From Halobaculum sp. XH14 (lineage in GTDB: Archaea > Halobacteriota > Halobacteria > Halobacteriales > Haloferacaceae): a DNA stretch of 64,000 nucleotides. The translations under genes and the position numbers were made by a program. How positions within the stretch are numbered: the stretch's first letter is position 1; each line of letters opens with the position of its first letter. The stretch lies in assembly GCF_032116555.1 (NCBI RefSeq), contig NZ_CP134949.1, positions 806,001 through 870,000 of the forward strand. The letters run 5' to 3'. Shown piece after piece: positions 12,191-50,463 of the stretch. The notes below the pieces were generated by a model. That model was not told where the DNA came from. It saw only the letters and a list, made by a program, of their open reading frames with translations, and made no database searches.

Positions 12191-12294
12191 CCTGCTGCCA
12201 ACGTACCCGCCGGCCAGCCGGACGAAAGTCAGGCCGGACTACCCACGGCGTGTACCTGCGGTAGTCGGGCCCGCGACGCTCGACCGACTTCCCG

Positions 12295-12395
12295 GCGGGT
12301 GGGAATGGAAGGGACCGCGGGGGCTTCCGAGGCGGTCCGAACGGGACGAGTGACCGAGTCGAGGGGTCAAACGTAGACGGGAGCTTTCGCGGCCA
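12295..12395 (+). repeat. Dispersed intergenic repeat, type II copy without hairpin insert
   Basis: Contains GGTGGGAATGGAAGGG then CCGCGG and GGGCTTCCGAGG. This is a slightly diverged form of the GGTGGGACTGAAAGGGG / GGGCTTTCGAGG pair found at 22640-22765, 28032-28131 and 50340-50375. A weaker GAGCTTTCGCG unit follows 60 bp later (12381). Here the slot between the two conserved blocks holds only the palindrome CCGCGG. Confidence 0.75.
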
Positions 12396-22499: not shown

Positions 22500-22900
22500 A
22501 CGAGCCGCGTGGCGCGCGGCGGTCAAGCGCCAGCGAGACCGCTCGTGCGAGGGACGAGCACCGCAGCGACTGAGCGAAGCGAAGGAGCGAGGAGCGCAGG
22601 AGGCTGGGGAGGGTGAGGCGCGGTGCCGTGCGGTGGGTGGGACTGAAAGGGGCCGCGGCTGTCGGCGACGCCCGGTGCCTCAAGCACCGCAGGGAGCGAA
22701 CGGAGTGAGCGACCGAGGAGCGCAGAGCGTACCACGCGAGCCGACAGCCGCGGGGGCTTTCGAGGCGTGCGTCATCCCCATAGACCAAGCGTGTGAGCTG
22801 GCAGCCGCGGGGGCTTTCGAGACGTACGACACAGTAGCCAAACGTCCACAGAAGCTGACAACCGCCGGGACGTTCGAGGCGGCCCACGCCGAGTTCGGAA
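22500..22900 (+). repeat. Mosaic repeat, type II with hairpin insert and 57-bp array
   Basis: Begins with the GCGCGGCGGTCAAGCG-type left part and GGCTGGGGAGGGTGAGG, then GGTGGGACTGAAAGGGG (about 22636-22652). An insert follows, bounded by 14-bp perfect inverted arms CCGCGGCTGTCGGC (22653-22666) and GCCGACAGCCGCGG (22740-22753), and then GGGCTTTCGAGG. The unit CAGCCGCGGGGGCTTTCGAG recurs at 22745, 22802 and (diverged) 22859, exactly 57 bp apart. Confidence 0.88.
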
Positions 22901-27319: not shown

Positions 27320-27434
27320 CCGCTAGTGTATGCGCCCGACTCGCATACCCCGCTCGCGGTCTGGGTGATGTGGCGCACGACCGAACTGTCAGTGGGGGTC
27401 AGGTTGAGTTCGGATTTTGGTTCGTCTGTACCGC

Positions 27435-27790
27435 CTCGAAAGCCCCCGCGGCTGTCGGCTCGCGCGGTACGCTCTGCGCTCCTCGGTCGCTCACTCCGTT
27501 CGCTCCCTGCGGTGCTTGAGGCACCGGGCGTCGCCGACTTACGGGAGAGCACGCTCTCCCGAATTCACGGGCGCAAGCGCCCGTGAACGCCGCGGCCTCC
27601 TTCAGTCCCACCCACCGCACCGCAGCCACGGCCTCCCCAGCCGACGAGGCCCCTCCCTTCGGTCGGGACCTCGCCTTCCCTCGGAGCACGCTCCTCGGAA
27701 CTCACCCTCGTGGTTCGAAAGACGCCAGGGCGTCTTTCGTCAGTACGGGAAACCGACGGGTTCCCGTACTGACGAACGGCGCGAGCGCCT
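27435..27790 (-). repeat. Mosaic repeat, type II with interrupted hairpin arm (inverted)
   Basis: On the minus strand the order is GGTGGGACTGAAGGAGG, an insert, then GGGGGCTTTCGAGG (ending at 27435). One arm of the insert is intact (27446-27459), the same 14 bp as at 22653. The matching arm is split into GCCGAC (27533-27538) and GCCGCGG (27589-27595) by two adjacent perfect hairpins: CGGGAGAGC/GCTCTCCCG (27542-27561) and TTCACGGGCGC/GCGCCCGTGAA (27564-27587). It continues into the 67-bp block shared with 22188-22254, plus the hairpin CAGTACGGGAA/TTCCCGTACTG (27741-27771). Confidence 0.85.
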
Positions 27791-27904
27791 TTCGAGCCAC
27801 GCTCCTCGCGCTCCCGACGGTCGCGCTGTGGTGCTTGTCAGCCGCGCCTCGGCGCGGCCGCCGCGCGCCATCTGGATCGCCCAATAGATGCGGTTGGCGC
27901 GTGC

Positions 27905-28260
27905 CGGCGGGCCTCCGTGCCCGCCGGGCGCGCGCGTGGGATGAGTGAGGGGAGCGACCAGAGGGAGCGAGCCGAGCGAATCGGCTGGGGAGGCGTGTGG
28001 CTGTGCTTGGCGGTCGCGGTGGGTGGGACTGAAAGGGGCCGGCTGGCTCCGCGACCCCCGGAACCCGCAAGCCGAGTGACGAGGAGCGCAGCGCGGTCCG
28101 CGGGAGCGGAGCCAGCCGGGGGCTTTCGAGGTGGTCGCCGCGATACCCGAAACGAGACTGAACGCGACCTACTTGGGGACTTTCGAGGCGGTCGTTACGA
28201 CAACTGAAACAGACCGAAGACGACCCAAAGCAGGGGTTTTCGAGACAGCCCTCACGAACA
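27905..28260 (+). repeat. Mosaic repeat, type II with a different hairpin and 57-bp array
   Basis: GGTGGGACTGAAAGGGG ends at 28040. The insert is bounded by CCGGCTGGCTCCG (28041-28053) and its perfect complement CGGAGCCAGCCGG (28107-28119), then GGGCTTTCGAG at 28120. Related units follow at 28177 (GGACTTTCGAG) and 28234 (GGGTTTTCGAG), again exactly 57 bp apart. Confidence 0.88.
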
Positions 28261-28337
28261 CCGAGACGATCCCGGGGACGGTCCACCAAACGCGCCGACA
28301 GTGAGTTTATCCCGACCGGTCACGTCCACCCACCAAG

Positions 28338-28856
28338 ATGCGCCGGATCTACGACTCGGAGGCGCTCCGGCGGGACGACGACGACCCGTTCGTCCCGAAC
28401 GGCGACGAGGGCGGGTCCGGGGGCCACGTTCACTGGGGGAACGTGAGCCACGCGCTGCTCCCGCGGTCGCTCCGCACGCGCTCGGTGGCGGTGACGGTCG
28501 AGACCGACGGGGCGATCTACGCCCCCGACGAGCCGATCCGGTTCCGGGTCGGCTTCCGCAACCGGCTCCCGTTTCCCGTCACGCTCGTGACCGCCTCGCC
28601 GAAGCACTGGTCGTGGTCCATCGACGGCAACCCCGAGGCCTCCCTCGTCCCGGACGAGGTGCCCGAGGAGCGCGCCCGCTTCCAGTTCGACCGCGCGGAG
28701 ACGAAGCTGTTCCACCGTCGCTGGGACCAGCGCGTGCGCGAGTCCGACCGGGAGTGGCGCGCCGCGGAGCCGGGCGAGCACACCCTCGCGGTCGGCATCG
28801 ACGCCGTCCGCGGCGCCGACCGACTGCGCGCGGAGACGACGTTCCGCATCGAGTGA
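28338..28856 (+). CDS. Conserved haloarchaeal protein, beta-rich (172 aa)
   Basis: A 172-aa protein starting MRRIYDSEALRRDDDDPFVP. The middle (about 48-150) reads as an immunoglobulin-like beta sandwich (VAVTVETDGAIYAPDEPIRF; VGFRNRLPFPVTLVTASPKH; GEHTLAVGIDAV), similar in feel to intracellular protease-inhibitor (BsuPI) domains. No cysteines, signal peptide or catalytic motif. A TATA-like AGTTTATCC about 30 bases upstream of the ATG suggests a leaderless transcript. trmY follows 93 bp later on the same strand. Function unknown. Confidence 0.8.
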   Translation: MRRIYDSEALRRDDDDPFVPNGDEGGSGGHVHWGNVSHALLPRSLRTRSVAVTVETDGAIYAPDEPIRFRVGFRNRLPFPVTLVTASPKHWSWSIDGNPEASLVPDEVPEERARFQFDRAETKLFHRRWDQRVRESDREWRAAEPGEHTLAVGIDAVRGADRLRAETTFRIE

Positions 28857-50051: not shown

Positions 50052-50154
50052 GGCACCGAGTGGGAGCGCGAGGGGGAAAAGTCGTGCCATCGGCGGCGGG
50101 TGGACGGGAAGGCGAAAGCGGGAGCCCGAACCGGTCGCGTGATGTGGGACAGCC

Positions 50155-50400
50155 GGATGGCGCGCGTGACGGCGAGCCCCGGAGGGGCGAGCGGACGCGC
50201 GCGAGGGACGAGCACCGCAGGCCGAAGTTCTCGTGAGCGACGCAGGAGCGAACGAGAGCACGCGGGTCGAGCGAAGCGAGTCCCACGAAGGCCGAGGAGC
50301 GCAGGAGGCTGGGGAGGGTGAGGTGCGGTTGCGGTGCAGTGGGTGGGACTGAAAGGGGCCGCGGGGGCTTTCGAGGTGTCGTCACTGAACCCGGAACTGT
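50155..50400 (+). repeat. Dispersed intergenic repeat, type I left part fused to type II
   Basis: Starts ATGGCGCGCGTGACGGCGAG as in type I, carries several short dyads (for example GTTCTCGT with ACGAGAGC), then GGCTGGGGAGGGTGAGG, and ends with GGTGGGACTGAAAGGGG-CCGCGG-GGGCTTTCGAGG. This copy links the two types and has no hairpin insert in the slot, only the CCGCGG palindrome. The rest of the 50052-50463 gap holds no gene. Confidence 0.85.
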
Positions 50401-50463
50401 CCCACCAACGCTACACTGCGAGGAGCAAGTGGTTACAAGCCCGTCCGCGCCCTCGAACCCCCA

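Follow-up and report, generated by a model that had tools for sequence, protein, structure and literature searches.

A dispersed hairpin element of haloarchaea with a conserved fold and a freely changing stem

What kind of DNA element keeps its pairing while the letters that pair are replaced? The question is raised by the window (the whole stretch of 64,000 nucleotides of Halobaculum sp. XH14 analysed here), in which an earlier note had pointed to four loci where two conserved blocks flank a slot that holds either a long hairpin, with arms of different sequence at different loci, or a bare palindrome. All four were recovered with small corrections to their coordinates. The left block, GGTGGGACTGAAAGGGG, is exact at 22636, 28022 and 50342 and has three mismatches at 12298, and its matches in the window number five against 0.16 expected from shuffles. 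In the 22636 copy the slot (22653-22753) has 14-bp perfect arms and is followed by the right block at 22754-22765. The 28-kb copy has its hairpin slot as described, although this spans 28039-28119 rather than 28041-28119 and its perfect arms, CCGGCTGGCTCCGC/GCGGAGCCAGCCGG, are 14 and not 13 bp long; a degenerate right-block repeat at 28175 also belongs to this copy. The two CCGCGG slots lie at 50359-50364 (not 50355-50362) and at 12315-12320 (instead of about 12315-12321). To these loci we add a minus-strand copy (27612-27434) that had been overlooked and that holds an extra inserted hairpin. We refer to the whole unit as element A, with P0 the base stem formed by the flanks and P1 the stem formed by the arms. 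The features in the window are as follows.

12298..12332, plus strand: hairpin-less copy with slot CCGCGG at 12315-12320 and a compensated P0, GGAAG/CTTCC
22510..22618, plus strand: module B, TGGCGCGCGG...CGTGCGAGGGACGAG...GGCTGGGGAGGGTGAG, a hairpin module often fused upstream of element A
22636..22652, plus strand: left block GGTGGGACTGAAAGGGG, with unpaired GGTGGGACT, then the P0 5' strand GAAAG (22645-22649) and GGG (22650-22652)
22653..22666, plus strand: P1 5' arm CCGCGGCTGTCGGC, 14 bp
22667..22739, plus strand: inner rod, with a tandem G.A step (GA 22667-22668 with GA 22738-22739), P2, the CAAGCACCGCAG/GAGGAGCGCAG motif, and P3 with G.A pairs and a GGA triloop
22740..22753, plus strand: P1 3' arm GCCGACAGCCGCGG; the ortholog in genome G001 (L086) carries a matching double change
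22754..22765, plus strand: right block GGGCTTTCGAGG, with GGG and the P0 3' strand CTTTC (22757-22761)
22809..22880, plus strand: two tandem units with a period of about 57 bp, degenerate copies of the right block plus a portion of the P1 3' arm
27434..27612, minus strand: fifth copy, with left block GGTGGGACTGAAGGAGG at 27612-27596 and an exact right block at 27447-27434
28022..28131, plus strand: second full copy, with left block 28022-28038, arms 28039-28052 and 28106-28119, and right block 28120-28131
50342..50376, plus strand: hairpin-less copy with slot CCGCGG at 50359-50364

In the 3.68-Mb source genome the 17-mer left block has 62 exact occurrences, and 110 at up to two mismatches, a tolerance at which the reversed pattern has no match genome-wide, and the right block GGGGGCTTTCGAGG is exact in 54 places. 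At up to one mismatch the left block is present 49 times in one sister genome and 74 times in another. Among 84,980 species genomes the exact block marks at least 120 stretches, and the matches listed are from Halobacteria of many genera, except for one chance match in a bacterium. A covariance model (R1) has 90 matches in the source genome; under strict filters it matches 67 of about 81 sampled genomes of the order, with scores reaching 122 bits across the order, and has none in the non-order remainder of a 393-genome sample of the phylum. Given this distribution, element A is an order-wide family, and haloarchaeal genomes hold up to about a hundred dispersed copies. Plasmid-borne copies exist and are few in number. 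A viral origin was rejected, the exact left block being absent from IMG/VR. A search of Rfam at gathering and at relaxed thresholds gave no match to the region, and we found no earlier description of element A in the open-access literature searched. Our reading of the sequence in the source genome covered the stretches that surround the copies. GTGGGACTGAAAG bears a resemblance, and no more than that, to how class 1 CRISPR repeats end on their 3' side.

On the top strand the order of parts is unpaired GGTGGGACT, P0 (GAAAG/CTTTC, 5 bp), a GGG/GGG loop, P1, a 5'GA/3'GA step and P2, which contains a 1x1 mismatch; beyond P2 lie another GA/GA step and a short stem, after which the conserved CAAGCACCGCA/GAGGAGCGCAGC motif, containing an A·A mismatch, leads to a tip of tandem G·A pairs and a triloop. 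The blocks that had been read as borders of the slot are so only in part, since they pair with each other as the base stem P0 and show covariation: GGAAG/CTTCC is found in 12 copies and GAACG/CGTTC in 3, and a few variants are uncompensated. Well-paired copies have, in their large majority, a P1 of 13 or 14 bp, and GA/GA follows it directly in 64 copies, by far the commonest outcome. In an alignment of 30 sequences, whose seeds were picked for a 13-bp P1 so that P1 is favoured there and P2-P3 are unselected, 97.1% of cells are paired against 75.1% with the 3' letters shuffled, two-sided changes amount to 187 cells against 63 shuffled and affect 21 of 32 pairs, and covariation is 0.531 against 0.147 shuffled, with slid controls at 0.076 or below. 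In copies found through the left block alone, with no pairing filter, the first 12 arm pairs are Watson-Crick in 84.6% of cases across genera (47.3% with swapped partners), in a set that has 100 distinct arms in 110 copies, and in 85.2% of cases in the source genome (61.9% with swapped partners). The arms are thus complementary throughout the genome, and the suggestion that pairing is kept while sequence is replaced holds genome-wide, order-wide and at individual orthologous sites. A rod made of P0, GGG/GGG, P1, tandem G.A, P2, tandem G.A, P3 and a triloop is within the folding capacity of one strand and is backed by its covariation. No outer stem of the attC-like kind (AAC...GTT) was found beyond P0, upstream and downstream complementarity being equal to that of swapped partners.

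Comparison of the same locus among relatives shows the hairpin present or gone, arms that differ in step, or the whole element missing. At an intergenic site between TopA and EndA (names that come from reading translated ORFs, without a family search) four Natrialbaceae have the element in place with the arms CTTCCGGGCTCGG, CTGACTCGGTCCG, CTTGCGCCCTCGG and CTGGCGCGCTCGG, all of which are complementary to their respective partners apart from one mismatch in the second and G·T pairs in the last, while the surroundings of the element are poorly conserved. Between two species (L061 and L257) both hairpins of a head-to-head composite differ in their arms and the flanks are conserved, and the 22636 copy differs from its ortholog L086 by a double change of G-C to C-G. 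The earlier proposal that hairpins are both acquired and lost at a fixed point stands for loss: L030 and L011 of the source genome have CCGCGG slots where the same sites in the sister species G001 (L081 and L265) have full hairpins. No case of a hairpin gained in an empty slot was observed. Short slots, mostly CCGCGG in the source genome and most commonly CCGG in other genera, equal the palindromic outer ends of the arms, as expected from deletion between the two copies of a palindromic end, and the CCGCGG slots look like hairpin deletions of this kind.

Whole elements also come and go. In each of the two sister genomes the orthologous spacer lacks the composite of module B and element A that stands at 50342, and one Haloarcula site is occupied by an element that a related genome lacks. 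A MITE would be marked by a target-site duplication and by terminal inverted repeats that match a transposon. Since no target-site duplication or clean insertion junction could be resolved (at 50342 the flanks have diverged between genomes), these cases of presence and absence could also reflect deletion. Beyond the genus, an element lies near the 22636 site in 1 of 17 relatives that possess the neighbouring gene. Separately, the genes that flank the 28022 copy (27320-28340) are adjacent here and about 300 kb apart in each of the two sister genomes, so that the elements at 27320-28340 sit at a rearrangement breakpoint.

Non-Watson-Crick pairs in P1 are G·T in 33 cases and A·C in 7 (a G·T share of 0.82 against 0.55 predicted by swapped partners), and of 187 copies, 126 have the tandem-G·A hairpin tip on their top strand and 5 on their bottom strand. 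Given this excess and the near confinement of the tip to the top strand, it is one strand that is selected for folding. RNA energy rules return a single rod near the consensus as the minimum-energy fold in five out of five copies tested; for the same copies DNA rules reproduce the consensus rod only in part, and DNA folding parameters may omit the special stability of sheared G·A pairs and GNA loops. The tips are overwhelmingly triloops of the C-GNA-G type, which form exceptionally stable DNA mini-hairpins such as d(GCGAAGC), and GNRA and UUCG tetraloops are rare. The folded molecule may be RNA or single-stranded DNA, and we state no preference.

Were it RNA, the copies might be the gene family of a new class of structured noncoding RNA, with the top strand transcribed and the rod acting in trans or in UTRs. 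Element A resembles candidate structured RNAs from comparative genomics in its covariation and in its rod with tandem G.A steps. The strong covariation, the tolerance of G.U on one strand, the folds obtained under RNA rules against the partial ones under DNA rules, the compensated persistence at orthologous sites and the invariant, unpaired GGTGGGACT all speak for this account. Element A differs from those candidates, however, in being dispersed, with little orientation bias, no promoter signal and tips other than GNRA or UUCG. Its copies are intergenic and in both orientations, with neighbour-gene patterns, on crude ORF calls, of ++ 59, +- 31, -+ 60 and -- 46, so that 46 of 196 copies oppose both neighbouring genes. 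Little orientation bias makes an obligate UTR role unlikely, and a cis-regulatory reading was likewise rejected on this near-even orientation to genes (again on crude ORF calls). The class-wide profile of upstream sequence has no conserved promoter or TATA-like box. Copies that are hairpin-less or nested are common, which, with the rarity of tetraloops among the triloop-dominated tips and the lack of an Rfam match, also stands against an RNA gene family; we consider this explanation rather unlikely, though worth keeping in view. In a few metagenome lineages an AT-rich box lies about 27 bp before an A.

The copies form mosaics, with module B or C upstream, head-to-head pairs of elements about 28 bp apart, nested double hairpins (module D) or right-block repeats downstream. 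Upstream of element A copies, module B follows the pattern TGGCGCGCG...GAGGGATGAG...CGGCTGGGGAGG. This module is itself a second widespread hairpin element, composed of GGTGGCGCGCG, a stem, CGCGCGAGGGATGAG, a hairpin and GAATCGGCTGGGGAGG; it is also present at many loci of the source genome (L010-L062) and in other genera, and shares the GCACCGCAG/GAGGAGCGCAG motif with element A. Module C is an inverted repeat, GACTACC...GGTAGTC, followed by GCTCGGCCGACCAACCG (window 12225-12297, L024, L028, L030 and L081). Module D, a double hairpin with the ends TGGTTCG...CGAACGA, is nested inside several different palindromes; it is found at L283:4010-4068, inside L098, L108, L121, L133 and L182, and inside copies of the source genome, and at L283 it lies where an IS605 tnpB gene has its 3' end, recalling the behaviour of SMR-A in Haloquadratum. 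In the source genus the element is followed downstream by tandem repeats (period about 57 bp) that combine the P1 3' arm with the right block and a tail; they lie at 22754-22880 and 28120-28240 of the window and at L014, L015, L028 and L031 of the source genome. At L107, L143, L145 and L160 an unrelated hairpin (GTGGTCGTCT...AGCGAC) replaces the inner part within the P0/P1 frame. Finally, the composite at 50117-50411, which the sister genomes lack, has a near-inverted repeat at its borders, GTGGGACAGCCGG and CCGGAACTGTCCCAC, a feature observed for this copy alone.

The nearest haloarchaeal description is that of the PATE and SMR-A repeats of Haloquadratum walsbyi. These repeats are tied to IS605-type ends; like element A they have palindromes and no transposase, include small hairpin elements nested inside other palindromes, and can lose their core by deletion from one direct repeat to the next. 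SMR-A units measure about 110 bp, have inverted ends and enter near-terminal palindromes with no duplication of the target (PMC3119063), and element A fits them in size as well as in nesting. Element A could be taken for remnants or ends of IS200/IS605 elements, its long hairpin being a mobile repeat of the SMR-A kind inside a near-terminal palindrome, and the double-hairpin module that nests in it does also stand at the 3' end of the tnpB gene of L283. The source genome, however, has no match to the Y1 (HUH) transposase PF01797, no reverse transcriptase and one match to TnpB despite its 90 element copies, on which grounds both IS605/Y1 and retro-mobility were rejected there. Neither the tnpB locus of L286 nor L283 showed any trace of element A, and a link to IS605 ends was not found in this genome with its single TnpB match. 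A regex scan for TnpB zinc ribbons gave nothing at any locus, but its pattern was unvalidated and perhaps too strict, and it was not used as evidence. SMR-A copies are near-identical, and the SMR and PATE types are described as near-identical or divergent in sequence, in neither case as sequence-free stems of fixed length, whereas the arms of element A are not near-identical and the element is order-wide and defined by its fold. We regard an IS200/IS605 derivation as improbable.

A neutral inverted repeat could also keep perfect arms if template switching alone, that is, quasipalindrome correction, copied one arm from the other, with no selected function. One clear mark of arm copying exists: in one relative (L080), GAAAGGGG...CCCCTTTC, the right flank is the exact complement of the left (GGG/CCC). 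Deletions at palindromic ends, moreover, are frequent. Correction of this kind should erase mismatches, yet the GGG/GGG loop has been rewritten to GGG/CCC in only 1 of 238 copies, which argues for selection on the loop, and most copies have retained their tandem G.A steps. Neither the excess of G.T over A.C nor order-wide conservation is predicted by it, and the probability that we give it is small. That these are chance GC-rich palindromes between chance flanks, as the high G+C of the genome might suggest and as the earlier note had allowed, is refuted by the genome-wide counts (62 exact 17-mers against none in the reversed control at up to two mismatches) and by order-wide matches of up to 122 bits.

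We lean, with some reserve, towards element A being a dispersed, structure-defined haloarchaeal element that works like a bacterial REP/BIME repeat. Bacterial REP/BIME sequences are intergenic hairpins with more than 100 copies per genome, in mosaics and in alternating orientation (PMC2817692). Element A is likewise high-copy, intergenic and palindromic, in both orientations, and it too forms mosaics and head-to-head arrangements with other motifs. It differs in being about 120 nt long against 20-40 for REP, in stem letters that are free and co-vary where those of REP are conserved, in having longer and different conserved blocks instead of a conserved 20-40 bp palindrome with a GTAG or CGTC tag, and in belonging to archaea, in a source genome without a Y1/RAYT enzyme. 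Since both the tagged short conserved palindrome and the Y1 transposase are missing, we do not claim element A as a member of REP.

In this REP/BIME-like reading, a protein or nucleoprotein would recognise the shape together with the invariant GGTGGGACTGAAAGGGG...GGGGCTTTC on a single strand. The arms may change in step through purifying selection, exchange between copies and occasional copying of arm from arm at a stalled hairpin; hairpins would be deleted by replication slippage between palindromic arm ends (CCGCGG, CCGG); and whole composites would be gained and lost over genus-level time, from which it would follow that element A is or was mobile, probably in a non-autonomous way. The recogniser, the route of spread and any benefit to the host are the steps that we infer in this model. 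Several points count against it: the searches of the source genome turned up no enzyme to recognise or move the element, no target-site duplication or clean insertion junction was resolved, compensated persistence at orthologous sites exceeds what a purely selfish repeat needs, and an outer stem beyond P0 is without support.

Recognition of a folded single strand with free arm sequence is familiar from the attC sites of integrons. Element A has the same freedom in its arms but differs in lying outside cassette arrays, in lacking outer pairing of the attC type and in its 17-nt invariant flank. Tentatively, and with somewhat less assurance, we propose that it represents a previously undescribed, order-wide class of elements, numbering from tens to about a hundred per genome and read by the shape of one strand (a free stem of 13-14 bp, a tandem G.A cap and a GNA triloop), to which a dedicated haloarchaeal protein might bind as single-stranded DNA or RNA.

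For an entire archaeal order, element A would be a major family of structured repeats, one that is absent from Rfam. It offers a natural case in which structure is conserved, stem sequence is free and copies are many in each genome, so that selection on folding, arm copying and hairpin deletion become directly measurable. With the genes beside the 28-kb copies lying apart in both sister genomes, the repeats may be hot spots of rearrangement. Should a protein prove to read the fold, this would amount to a new system of single-strand recognition in archaea.
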